Below, piece after piece: positions 18,309 to 20,437 of a stretch of 20,437 nucleotides of DNA. A model generated the notes under the pieces. The model was not told the DNA's origin. It saw nothing but the letters and a program-made list of their open reading frames with translations, and did not search any database. Numbering within the stretch: the stretch's first letter is position 1; each line of letters opens with the position of its first letter. Both the position numbers and the translations under genes were made by a program. This stretch comes from a virus. The stretch lies in the IMG/VR virus record IMGVR_UViG_3300030098_001461, positions 1,562 through 21,998 of that record. One strand, given 5' to 3'.

Positions 18309-19439
18309 TTAGAATGCAGAAGGTGCAGTATCACCTACATACAATTCGACTGCAGCAGCAGGATTAATATAATCCGCACCACAGGCTAAGCGACCCAATA
18401 TCACGTCACCTTGGTAAATGACCGATACGTCACCCTTGGTTACTTGAACTTGAGGTCCAATTGCTTCTACAATACCAGCAGCTTCACGTTGGAAGATAAG
18501 TCCACATGACTTAGCTCCTAGCTCTGAGTTAGTACCGTAGTCGTTATGGATACCAGCTTCATTCTCATCGGCATCCTCTGGAGTTACACTCAGAAAGTCG
18601 CCTGGGTTTGTTGGTTCTGTTACACCAGTTGTACCACCATAAGCAGTACCATATTTGCCAAGGAACGGTATGTTCATTGACTTGTAGATCTTGATACCAG
18701 CGATCTCCACAATTCCATTACCCTTCTGACGGGATGTACCTTGTGCGTCTCTGTTAACTAGACCATTCTCACCAACCTGTTGTATCAATTCATAGTATTG
18801 ACGAGCGTTCAAAACTGAGACTCTCCCGTCAGAACTGACTCCTTTCTCGTCGAGTGCAGCAGCTGCGTCATAGAACGCATTAACTAGGTTTGATGGAACG
18901 TAAGCATCAGAGTCGTTAGTTGTTGAACCAACACGAATCTGAGTACCACCTGGCTCTTTCCAGTCAGTCTTAGAGATAGGTGATGCAGCTCTTGCTCCAC
19001 GTGTAATTGCACGGAATGCAAGTCTGTCATACTTCTCAGCTAAAGCATAACCGATCTTACGAGAGATCTCTGATCTCAAGTCATAATGTGCAAGTGTCTC
19101 ATCTAGCTCATATAAAAATGCTGAACTGATAAGCAACTCGTCTACAGTTATAGTCTTCTCAGATACTGGAGGTGCTCCATCACTGTTACCTAATATTGAA
19201 TTTCCTGGCGTGTGAAATTCACTTTTGGTGCGACCCGTGTAGATAAACTGTAAAGATTTGCCATTCTTCAAGGTACGCTTCATGATGAGATCCCTAGCAA
19301 TTGTGTTGTGCTGGAACCCCTTGAACATCTCACCACTGAACAATTTAAGATAGAGTTCTCGTCTGTCCGAGCCTCCATTCTTAGCACCAGGTACGGTTAC
19401 CGACGCCTGATGATCTGTTGATTGATGTATTGTTGACAT
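18309..19439 (-). CDS. Major capsid protein (T7 gp10-like)
   Basis: The 376-residue HK97-fold protein builds the icosahedral head. Recognised stretches of T7-like cyanophage capsids are DRRELYLKLFSGEMFKGFQH, MKRTLKNGKSLQFIYTGRTK, then EKTITVDELLISSAFLYELD, GYALAEKYDRLAFRAITRGA, IAGIKIYKSMNIPFLGKYGT and GDVSVIYQGDVILGRLACGA, ending NPAAAVELYVG. T7 gp10A has 345 residues, so length is normal. A Glu/Asp-rich loop at about 270-300 is likely surface-exposed and variable. No ribosome site precedes the ATG: the upstream bases are all A and T. The gene has a structured leader and its own terminator, so it is probably expressed as a discrete high-level unit. No gp10B-type frameshift extension is evident, because the stop is followed directly by the terminator. 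Confidence 0.96.
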   Translation of the reverse strand: MSTIHQSTDHQASVTVPGAKNGGSDRRELYLKLFSGEMFKGFQHNTIARDLIMKRTLKNGKSLQFIYTGRTKSEFHTPGNSILGNSDGAPPVSEKTITVDELLISSAFLYELDETLAHYDLRSEISRKIGYALAEKYDRLAFRAITRGARAASPISKTDWKEPGGTQIRVGSTTNDSDAYVPSNLVNAFYDAAAALDEKGVSSDGRVSVLNARQYYELIQQVGENGLVNRDAQGTSRQKGNGIVEIAGIKIYKSMNIPFLGKYGTAYGGTTGVTEPTNPGDFLSVTPEDADENEAGIHNDYGTNSELGAKSCGLIFQREAAGIVEAIGPQVQVTKGDVSVIYQGDVILGRLACGADYINPAAAVELYVGDTAPSAF

Positions 19440-19559
19440 TATTAAAAATTAATTTGATATATACGTTTCTCAGCTGAAATTTTTTGATCATTTTTTTTGT
19501 GGTCTATCCCACCGTCTAGACGGCTAATAGGTATCCTCCGTAGAGGGCTAAAAGCCAAA
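19440..19559 (-). promoter_or_regulatory. Structured AT-rich leader of the capsid gene
   Basis: The only sizeable intergenic stretch before the capsid gene. In mRNA direction it has three short hairpins: GGCT/AGCC (19546-19556), CCTC-TACG-GAGG with a UNCG-type loop (19535-19546), and the 12-base palindrome CCGTCTAGACGG (19512-19523). An A-rich run and an AT-only stretch follow, up to the ATG. No purine-rich ribosome site lies near the start. It may hold a late promoter, an RNase processing site or a stabilising 5' structure. I cannot recognise a phage promoter consensus. Confidence 0.5.
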
Positions 19560-19578
19560 TTACAGAGAGGTCCGACAC
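19516..19578 (-). CDS. Possible 20-aa membrane peptide in the capsid leader
   Basis: A GTG frame encodes SDLSVIWLLALYGGYLLAV after the start, almost entirely one transmembrane helix, and ends in a TAG within the palindrome. GAGAGG lies 7 bases before the GTG, a proper ribosome site. It overlaps the end of the 40-aa ORF in another frame. Being so short it could be chance, but the hydrophobic run with a correctly spaced ribosome site is suggestive. Size and layout recall tiny phage membrane peptides; no function is assigned. Confidence 0.4.
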   Translation of the reverse strand: MSDLSVIWLLALYGGYLLAV

Positions 19579-19682
19579 TGAGGTGCCTCTCTGCTATGGA
19601 AGTTCACATGAAGAACTTCTATATGTATGAAGAAGGCTAGAGTAAATAATACTACTAGCCATAGTTCATTGAACTTCTTCAC
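19560..19682 (-). CDS. 40-aa single-span membrane protein, GTG start
   Basis: The ORF reads (V/M)KKFNELWLVVLFTLAFFIH, then IEVLHVNFHSREAPQCRTSL. Two lysines precede a hydrophobic segment at about residues 5-25, so an N-in single-span protein is likely. The start is GTG, overlapping the TGA of the 49-aa gene (GTGA), in line with the coupled junctions elsewhere. The last ten codons also form the 5' arm of the hairpin at 19563-19593. Function unknown; lysis control, envelope modification or a small photosystem-like peptide cannot be told apart from sequence. Confidence 0.55.
   Translation of the reverse strand: MKKFNELWLVVLFTLAFFIHIEVLHVNFHSREAPQCRTSL
19563..19593 (-). promoter_or_regulatory. 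Hairpin covering a ribosome site and GTG start
   Basis: CAGAGAGG pairs perfectly with CCTCTCTG (8 pairs), with an inner CAC/GTG pairing. The 5' arm contains the GAGAGG ribosome site and the inner stem contains the GTG of the 20-aa ORF, so both would be hidden until a ribosome translating the 40-aa ORF opens the stem. There is no T run after it, so it is not an intrinsic terminator. Confidence 0.6.
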
Positions 19683-19828
19683 TTTTTATCAGGTATATCA
19701 CTAGCTGGAATCTCTTCCTCAATAGTTAATGGATCCATCATGTGTAGAGGTATTCCTGATTTAGAAAATTCAGGTTCGGGAGTCAGTGAAGTAACTGACG
19801 CCCTAGCCTTATCACTTTGATGAGCCAT
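19679..19828 (-). CDS. Small acidic protein, 49 aa
   Basis: The ORF reads MAHQSDKARASVTSLTPEPE, passes through SGIPLHMMDPLTIEEEIPAS and ends DIPDKK. It is acidic, Pro-containing and probably disordered, with no membrane segment. Its ATG overlaps the stop of the outer-membrane-like gene as TAATG and its stop overlaps the next GTG. Reality rests on this tight packing. It lies where T7 has its scaffold gene but is far too short to be a normal scaffold (T7 gp9: 307 aa). No function is assigned. Confidence 0.6.
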   Translation of the reverse strand: MAHQSDKARASVTSLTPEPEFSKSGIPLHMMDPLTIEEEIPASDIPDKK

Positions 19829-20190
19829 TAGAAACTATACTTAGCTCCAGCTTTAACGTTATAAACATTATCTAAGTCACCAGCAGTGATGCCAGAGAAC
19901 TCACCATAGAAAGCTAACTTGTCAGTTGCGTTATAGTTAAGTCCAGCTTTACCAGAGATTTCATTCTCAGTACCATCAACACCTTCAGTAGCTATGATAG
20001 TTGGACCACCTTGGATGTAGTAGGAAGTTTTACCTTCTCCACCTTCAGCACCAATGTGGAAATCTATAGCTCTACCAAAGTATTCTTTACCTTCATAACC
20101 TTGGTTCAACTCAGTGTTGAAATATACTCCAGCGGATGCAGGTGCAGACGCTAATGTGGTGGCTGCGAGAGCAAGTGCAATTGTTTTCAT
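19828..20190 (-). CDS. Exported outer-membrane-barrel-like protein
   Basis: The 120-residue protein begins with a signal peptide MKTIALALAATTLASAPASA. The mature 100 residues are amphipathic beta strands in hairpin rhythm (FGRAIDFHIGAEG, TSYYIQGGPTIIAT, ISGKAGLNYNATDKLAFYGE) and end VKAGAKYSF. A final Phe with Tyr two residues before is the C-terminal signal that the BAM machinery reads in outer-membrane barrels. The fold could be a small barrel of about six strands, or a piece that oligomerises. I recall similar short porin-like proteins in cyanophages, of unknown role. Altering the host outer membrane (superinfection exclusion or release of progeny) is inference. No ribosome site is visible before the ATG, which lies 4 bases after the 35-aa ORF, so it may be coupled to it. 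Confidence 0.85.
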   Translation of the reverse strand: MKTIALALAATTLASAPASAGVYFNTELNQGYEGKEYFGRAIDFHIGAEGGEGKTSYYIQGGPTIIATEGVDGTENEISGKAGLNYNATDKLAFYGEFSGITAGDLDNVYNVKAGAKYSF

Positions 20191-20194
20191 TAAA

Positions 20195-20302
20195 TTAATT
20201 TTTGTAAGTTTTGTAGTATTCGATGCCTCGATATTTAAGTTTCTCTTCTCTATCTAATACTTTTTGCTCTTTAACACGAGCTTGTAATTCGATTGGAGAC
20301 AT
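20195..20302 (-). CDS. Small charged protein, 35 aa
   Basis: The ORF reads MSPIELQARVKEQKVLDREE and ends KLKYRGIEYYKTYKN. It is a highly charged helix with a final KYRG-x-x-Y motif that I recall from tiny cyanophage proteins. A GAGG ribosome site lies 8 bases upstream, and the stop is 4 bases before the next gene. The two-hairpin RNA element ends a few bases before this start. Function unknown. Confidence 0.65.
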   Translation of the reverse strand: MSPIELQARVKEQKVLDREEKLKYRGIEYYKTYKN

Positions 20303-20316
20303 AGTAAAAACCTCAA

Positions 20317-20373
20317 TACCTAAGCCCCGTTCCATGCTTAGGTTTCATGCGTCCCAAGGGGATGAACGGACGT
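20317..20373 (-). ncRNA. Two-hairpin structured RNA element
   Basis: In mRNA direction the first part, ACGTCCGTTCATCCCCTTGG followed by GACGCATGAA, can fold as CGTCC/GGACG (20350-20372) or, mutually exclusively, as TTCAT/ATGAA with an inner CCC/GGG (20344-20366). A second hairpin, ACCTAAGC/GCTTAGGT, is a perfect 8-pair stem (20318-20343) with a 10-base loop ATGGAACGGG. The unpaired or loop sequences GTTCATCC, GGGACGCATGA and GGAACGGGG look like a motif I recall recurring in cyanophage genomes, possibly Rfam PhotoRC-II or a related phage element. The family name is a hypothesis. It sits just before the 35-aa ORF, so a 5'-UTR role is likely. Confidence 0.55.
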
Positions 20374-20375
20374 GG

Positions 20376-20435
20376 CTAATGTGGATCCATTTGACCTTTC
20401 GGTAGATAGGCAAGTTCTCTTAGTGCCTTTACGCT
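20376..20435 (-). CDS. Possible C-terminus of an upstream gene
   Basis: A frame entering from beyond the window reads SVKALRELAYLPKGQMDPH and stops at TAG just before the RNA element. The composition (helix, then polar tail) is protein-like and the stop position is natural. Another frame also stays open for 32 codons into the element, so the choice is uncertain. If real, this could be the end of the scaffold gene expected upstream of the capsid, but nothing visible proves that. Confidence 0.35.
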   Translation of the reverse strand, partial: SVKALRELAYLPKGQMDPH

Positions 20436-20437
20436 TG

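Follow-up and report, generated by a model that had tools for sequence, protein, structure and literature searches.

A predicted Glutamine-II riboswitch preceding a DUF4278-like micropeptide ORF in the late operon of a T7-like cyanophage

Organization of the locus

The window, by which we mean the whole 20,437-nucleotide stretch of viral DNA analyzed here, matches T7-like cyanophages (53 records) with its late region in BLASTN searches, and the features considered below all lie on its minus strand (Table 1). Read in that direction, an upstream ORF ends in a TAG at 20377-20375 and is followed by a compact RNA element, a 35-codon ORF that starts at the ATG at 20302, an ORF for an outer-membrane-like β-barrel protein whose ATG lies 4 nt past the stop of the micropeptide, a 49-aa ORF, a second structured RNA and the gene for the major capsid protein. 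The element of 57 bases sits between coding regions, as described in an earlier note made from the letters of the sequence. For the end of the upstream ORF (19 codons, SVKALRELAYLPKGQMDPH), tblastn found no convincing relative among the loci. The virus record, 21,998 nt long, stops 66 bases upstream of the aptamer, so that the leader is visible in part.

Table 1. Features of the late region of the window
Feature	Position	Strand	Basis or remark
Major capsid protein gene	18309..19439	-	ORF list; similar to P-SSP7 gene 10 and relatives
Second structured RNA, leader of the major capsid gene, separate from the riboswitch	19497..19600	-	model R1, 93.1 bits
49-aa ORF	19679..19828	-	ATG overlaps the β-barrel stop (TAATG)
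120-aa cyanophage outer-membrane-like β-barrel ORF (PF24653)	19828..20190	-	Pfam E 4e-35
35-codon ORF MSPIELQARVKEQKVLDREEKLKYRGIEYYKTYKN, YRGxxY micropeptide	20195..20302	-	ATG 20302
Shine-Dalgarno-like GAGG of the 35-codon ORF	20311..20314	-	sequence only
Glutamine-II riboswitch aptamer	20319..20371	-	RF01704 model positions 1-60, cmscan
P2 hairpin, 8 bp (the hairpin of the earlier note)	20318..20343	-	20343-20336 with 20325-20318
Pseudoknot 3' strand GAACG, G36-G40, within the P2 loop	20328..20332	-	structure, accessible text of PMC6698751
Linking strand C17 G18 C19	20349..20351	-	placed by alignment
P1 hairpin UCCC-CUU-GGGA	20352..20362	-	
Pseudoknot 5' strand CGUUC, C1-C5 (numbering of Huang et al. 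2019)	20364..20368	-	pairs with 20332-20328

Identification of the RNA element

A cmscan search matches the element to RF01704, the Glutamine-II riboswitch aptamer formerly termed the "downstream-peptide" motif, at 20371-20319 of the minus strand, with a score of 49.5 bits that exceeds the gathering cut-off of 33 (E = 1.7e-9 over the whole window, 3.7e-11 over its last 438 nt). This is the single match of the whole window to the Rfam covariance models, and a record-wide search finds one RF01704 copy in the 21,998 nt. Comparison of the region 20000-20437 with 4227 Rfam families returns nothing except RF01704 at E ≤ 1; PhotoRC-I, PhotoRC-II and wcaG, the models that the earlier note had put forward, give no match at this threshold and were rejected. 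On sequence grounds the element is real, and is a Glutamine-II riboswitch aptamer, a known class; it would represent a glutamine riboswitch that a T7-like cyanophage carries in its late operon and, as a member of its family, is predicted to bind L-glutamine. The earlier guess of a regulatory 5'-UTR or a sensor thus agrees with the riboswitch class indicated by the RF01704 match, and the likeness to elements of other cyanophages that it pointed out is genuine: a Glutamine-II riboswitch occupies the same place in P-SSP7, P-SSP10, S-RIP2, S-TIP37 and others. The density of pairing, on which that note had based its case against chance, is unexceptional: the minimum free energy (MFE) is -17.7 kcal/mol, shuffled sequences average -14.88 (sd 2.78, giving z = -1.01), and 28 of the 200 shuffles fold equally well or better. 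It is the family match (E = 3.7e-11) together with covariation that sets the element above chance.

Fold, ligand site and covariation

P1, P2 and the loop-to-5' pseudoknot of the family are all present in the window copy. P2 is the perfect hairpin of eight pairs that had been singled out from the start: its strands ACCTAAGC (20343-20336) and GCTTAGGT (20325-20318) are fully complementary on the minus strand and enclose the loop ATGGAACGGG. The earlier note gave no strand and overlooked the pseudoknot between CGUUC (20368-20364) and GAACG (20332-20328). In the crystal structure, according to the accessible text of PMC6698751, the loop-to-5' pseudoknot builds the glutamine site, G18 belongs to a ligand-site triple and C19 pairs with G41 (20327 here). 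The site nucleotides of the structure that can be placed are all present in the window (C1 G2 U3, G18 C19, A33, and A38 C39 G40 G41 G42), and its sequence allows each of the interactions described in that text, namely C1:G40, G18>G2:C39, C19:G41 and A33:G42.

Copies for comparison comprised at least 120 viral stretches found by pattern, 17 with a changed pseudoknot pair, and annotated cyanophages; the 149 with a recognised YRG ORF reduce to 134 unique copies, 133 of which were parsed, L131 being excluded for its distance to the ATG. Among the matches listed, P2 extends to at least 6 bp in 126 of the 133 parsed copies, and its pairs 2-8 show 13 to 62 both-sided changes apiece, with pairing retained above all 500 shuffles. 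The P1 pair 7:16, again among the 133 copies from the matches listed, is U:A in 125, A:U in five, G:C in two and C:G in one. As most pseudoknot positions are set by the search patterns, pair 5:36 alone provides an informative test of covariation there: it is C:G or U:A, with U:A in 17 of 17 double-change matches, and a scan for changes on its 5' side only returned none. For pair 4:37, scans of viral contigs for double or 5'-only changes gave none. The stems thus covary strongly among homologues, which the earlier note had named as a check, and on this alignment the conserved fold of the phage copies is P1, P2 and the pseudoknot; both stems covary, as does pair 5:36 of the pseudoknot.

The earlier note had envisaged a different switch, a two-hairpin RNA in which CGUCC/GGACG and the combination of UUCAU/AUGAA with CCC/GGG exclude each other. 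Both alternatives can indeed be drawn (CGTCC/GGACG and TTCAT/ATGAA in the DNA), and the pseudoknot-free MFE fold of the window computed with ViennaRNA consists of CGUCC/GGACG and the 8-bp hairpin. Among the matches listed, all five CGUCC/GGACG pairs are possible in 83 of 133 copies, and UUCAU/AUGAA is complete in 38 of 133. The CGUCC/GGACG helix would mask the ligand-site nucleotides C1 and G18, and so could be one OFF fold for the lineage of the window. Comparison of the copies nevertheless lends this helix no support: both-sided changes number zero at all five positions, pairing is retained no more than in shuffles, and copies with a changed P1 pair 7:16 do not restore the alternative helix. 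We therefore consider a switch of this kind to be highly improbable.

Two phages carry aptamers of unusual form. In S-CBP1 (L133 1455-1538) the P1 region is larger, giving 84 nt overall, yet the aptamer scores 45.7 bits. In S-SBP1 (L135 1787-2422) an insertion of about 150 bases apparently splits the riboswitch between the CGTACGTTCATC strand and GACGCATG, with P2 and the YRG peptide kept.

The downstream YRGxxY micropeptide

A YRG-bearing ORF of 12-60 aa follows 114 of 120 viral copies among the matches listed, and the six copies in this set that lack one have at most 141 bases of contig remaining. The start codon lies 22-31 nt past CATGGAACGG in 133 of 134 unique copies among the matches listed. 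These copies were selected for encoding YRG, so that the conservation of Y, R and G in them is there by construction; outside the selected letters, all 133 parsed copies among the matches listed have a Y at +5. The motif varies synonymously, its R being encoded by six codons and its G by four, and pN/pS is 0.51 over 11 codons. The earlier note had named conservation of an encoded peptide instead of the stems as grounds for abandoning a structured RNA; the peptide that is conserved here is encoded past the RNA, on its downstream side, and not within it.

The window peptide has weak matches to phrog_5049 and phrog_24160 and no match in a Pfam search, where it stays below the gathering score of 25.3 for DUF4278 (PF14105); we therefore term it DUF4278-like and do not file it as a DUF4278 member. 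A relative (L115) passes DUF4278 with 26.8 bits, and several other phage peptides fall below the cut-off. A pattern scan of GTDB genomes yielded at least 120 host copies, nearly all from Prochlorococcus or Synechococcaceae among 80 listed by name, and a YRG ORF comes next in 117 of the 120. These host ORFs mostly contain three YR(G/R)xxY repeats, and three of three host proteins tested exceed the Pfam DUF4278 cut-off. The phage and host peptide profiles align with an hhalign probability of 92 (E 6.4e-7, 15 columns), the phage peptides matching the last repeat of the host proteins only. A contig of a Porticoccaceae MAG (L168) has a phage-like Glutamine-II element with no recognised YRG ORF in a non-cyanobacterial bin, and may be a wrongly binned phage contig.

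Phyletic and genomic distribution in cyanopodoviruses

When 23 cyanopodovirus records were searched in full, 19 of them, including P-SSP7, P-SSP10, P-GSP1, S-RIP2 and S-TIP37, each gave a single match over the cut-off, and the site is before the capsid gene, usually after psbA. At the same site, S-SBP1 and S-CBP3 have sub-threshold aptamers (19.6 and 16.1 bits), which are damaged while the YRG peptide is retained. The whole-record search finds no aptamer in S-B28 and only a chance-level 9.2 bits in DSL-LC07, and in these two phages the interval before the capsid gene contains neither aptamer nor YRG peptide. Among the matches listed, 71 of 120 loci have psbA upstream and the capsid gene downstream within 5 kb, with the capsid gene alone in 24, psbA alone in 12 and neither in 13; every one of these 120 loci except L039 carries at least one of seven query genes.

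A sample chosen independently of the riboswitch was obtained by scanning for the capsid leader RNA described below, which yielded at least 120 loci, 53 of them already in the riboswitch-pattern set. Among the matches listed, a loose regular expression detects the riboswitch in 12 of the 67 new loci, while 23 of the 67 give no such match and have fewer than 500 bases upstream. Another 17 from the matches listed are negative by this expression with at least 1500 bases upstream; eight of these match the aptamer at E ≤ 2e-5, three of the eight over the cut-off, and nine of the 17 have no aptamer at E ≤ 0.1. With four of 23 records lacking a scoring aptamer and nine of 17 leader loci lacking any, the switch is common but not universal.

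Mechanism of switching

According to the accessible text of PMC6698751 and PMC6316151, GFP fusions show the family to be an ON switch, which probably acts on translation; this text proposes that the ribosome site is hidden by an alternative structure, which it does not identify. By this precedent, once L-glutamine binds, the pseudoknot between CGUUC and the GAACG of the P2 loop would be locked onto P1 and P2. Without ligand, an alternative pairing would restrain the ribosome-binding site (RBS), so that high host glutamine would turn translation ON. The direct target would be the short YRGxxY peptide, 35 aa here and 12-60 aa in relatives.

A candidate for the restraining pairing emerges upstream of the pseudoknot. 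The leader (16 nt 5' of C1, plus C1-G2) pairs with the ribosome-binding region at -6.53 kcal/mol against -4.74 (sd 0.27) after permutation, none of 500 permutations being as good; the set consists of 53 cluster representatives of the 131 copies with enough upstream DNA among the matches listed. Two windows further upstream show no excess pairing with the RBS region (z = 0.1 and -1.3). The sequences involved differ by lineage (TAATCTCC/GGAGATTA, TTCGTAC/GTACGAA, GACTCCA/TGGAGTT), and the helix reaches -7 kcal/mol or better in 21 of the 53 representatives; in the window it is weak, at -3.8 kcal/mol. A control with reversed leaders also deviates, though less (-4.91 against -4.29 kcal/mol, 1/500), which means that part of the signal is composition. 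We propose the leader-RBS helix as an OFF structure supported by these permutations for many relatives and unsupported for the window copy. It offers a concrete candidate for the structure left open in the accessible text of PMC6698751. An anti-Shine-Dalgarno strand within the 5' strand of P2 (GAAACCU/AGGUUUU) was rejected, as 165 of 200 permutations are as good across relatives; in the window this pairing amounts to -7.2 kcal/mol, rank 9 of 133 natural copies among the matches listed.

A universal ON/OFF change in accessibility of the ribosome site is not seen with the ViennaRNA ensemble calculation: with the pseudoknot strands freed, the mean unpaired probability of the RBS is 0.51 against 0.51 in 133 copies among the matches listed and is higher in 36, with 0.66 against 0.63 in the window. 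This would suit a host-captured relic, a Glutamine-II-like fold that no longer switches and provides the late transcript with a stable spacer or a processing site, as would the degenerate or interrupted copies of S-CBP3 and S-SBP1 and the two isolates without any. A mere spacer would hardly be expected, however, to retain the binding-site nucleotides, to covary in P1, P2 and pseudoknot pair 5:36, or to keep so strict a spacing to the start codon; moreover, the aptamer is co-conserved with the YRG peptide, and the two aptamer-free isolates also lack the peptide in the interval upstream of the capsid gene. We regard the relic as quite improbable.

Functional implications and relation to known systems

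Taken together, these observations make it likely that the element is a translational ON switch of the Glutamine-II class for a DUF4278-like micropeptide in the late operon of a T7-like cyanophage, with nitrogen sensing as its likely purpose. The ON direction of the window copy is assigned by analogy with the family experiments, and the peptide is a candidate effector. It resembles one repeat of the three-repeat DUF4278 proteins under the same switch in Prochlorococcus. The switch might serve to sense host nitrogen status after the block of auxiliary genes and before capsid synthesis, so that a small effector of host nitrogen metabolism would be made when nitrogen is plentiful. In the window genome the β-barrel gene is probably translated by coupling to the micropeptide, given its start 4 nt downstream.

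Such coupling raises the question of what the switch governs. If the peptide were a leader acting only in cis, glutamine would gate the β-barrel and capsid genes as a nitrogen checkpoint on late expression, a reading that the presence of the capsid gene within 5 kb downstream in 95 of 120 loci among the matches listed would accommodate. Of 120 assessable copies among the matches listed, 17, the window included, have a gene of at least 80 aa, in most cases the β-barrel gene, that starts between -4 and +12 nt of the peptide stop; against this, 103 of these 120 have no coupled gene. Furthermore, about 300-600 nt usually separate the riboswitch from the start of the capsid gene, which is preceded by a structured leader of its own, and the peptide motif is conserved as amino acids and matches the repeat of the host proteins. 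A checkpoint of this kind appears unlikely, and the micropeptide is the favored target.

Cyanophages take over host photosynthesis and carbon metabolism. The switch proposed here would equip the late operon of cultured models (e.g. P-SSP7) with a nitrogen sensor, and the virus may thus read the nitrogen state of its host before building capsids. As the YRG ORF is usually unannotated, such a link between nitrogen state and phage production is easy to miss. Few viral metabolic effectors would be smaller than the peptide, should it indeed act on nitrogen metabolism. More tentatively, and as a scenario that we hold to be possible rather than probable, most marine T7-like cyanophages might carry a host-derived cassette in which a glutamine ON riboswitch controls a micropeptide with one IF17-like DUF4278 repeat, which would retune host glutamine synthesis as an inhibitor or a dominant-negative decoy at the change from auxiliary to capsid genes, with individual lineages having re-evolved the anti-ribosome-site strand 5' of the pseudoknot.

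The closest known counterparts are the Glutamine-II (RF01704) elements of marine picocyanobacteria, which share the P1-pseudoknot-P2 architecture, the ligand-site nucleotides and a short DUF4278/YRG-type ORF directly downstream, but precede host genes instead of standing in a phage late operon. Their cargo is about 55-63 aa with three repeats, whereas that of the phages is usually a single repeat of 12-38 aa, and they occur in several copies per host genome, as reported in the accessible text of PMC6316151, against one per phage record examined. Prochlorococcus Yfr6/PMM1846 (DUF4278, IF17-N-terminus-like) likewise combines a Glutamine-II 5' UTR with a short conserved YRG-type peptide, though as host genes. 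The Yfr6 peptide has 33 aa (PMC2518516), and PMM1846 is a 7 kDa protein with an NtcA-type promoter, a role of such proteins in inhibiting GS being a proposal only (both in the accessible text of PMC6316151). The motif was reported from cyanobacteria and marine samples by Weinberg 2010 (accessible text of PMC2864571).

Glutamine riboswitches borne by phages have precedents: they are mentioned for T4-like cyanophages in the accessible text of PMC9602691 and PMC9964418, and for the myophages Melnitz and Mosig in that of PMC9004378. The latter text describes Melnitz as a myovirus with a glnA-like (type 1) element by its tmRNA gene, whereas the elements considered here are of type 2, belong to T7-like podoviruses and precede the capsid gene, accompanied by a micropeptide. 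Literature searches, with subscription papers outside their scope, found nothing linking DUF4278 with phage, and found "glutamine riboswitch" together with "T7-like" in PMC9602691 only, where the riboswitch appears in one introductory sentence. New here are the conserved late-operon site in T7-like cyanophages and the single-repeat peptide cargo, although the Rfam member list of RF01704 may already include these phages, as well as the pairing of leader and RBS among relatives and the capsid leader RNA as a separate element.

The capsid leader RNA

The second RNA, of about 100 nt, consists of a hairpin, a segment of the form GGCN...[stem, UACG-type loop]GAUACC...NGCC, and hairpins of CCGUC/GACGG and GUGG/CCAC. 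Both-sided changes occur at 10 of its 16 predicted pairs when 45 diverse copies are aligned. Model R1, derived from this alignment, matches 23 of 24 sources (the window and 23 phage loci), missing S-TIP28, and 86 of 87 viral loci, many of which are in or near its training set; these 87 are the ones with downstream sequence among 120 pattern loci from the matches listed. An Rfam search with this RNA gives nothing over the cut-off, and the RNA also occurs in the riboswitch-free S-B28 and DSL-LC07. It may constitute a new RNA family with a part in the stability, processing or control of the capsid mRNA. In NATL1A-7 (L134) it overlaps an annotated tRNA-Gly at 2431-2561, and in many relatives (e.g. 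S-TIP37) its first hairpin resembles a tRNA T-arm. This overlap and the T-arm likeness suggest a tRNA relic or a tRNA-like processing signal.
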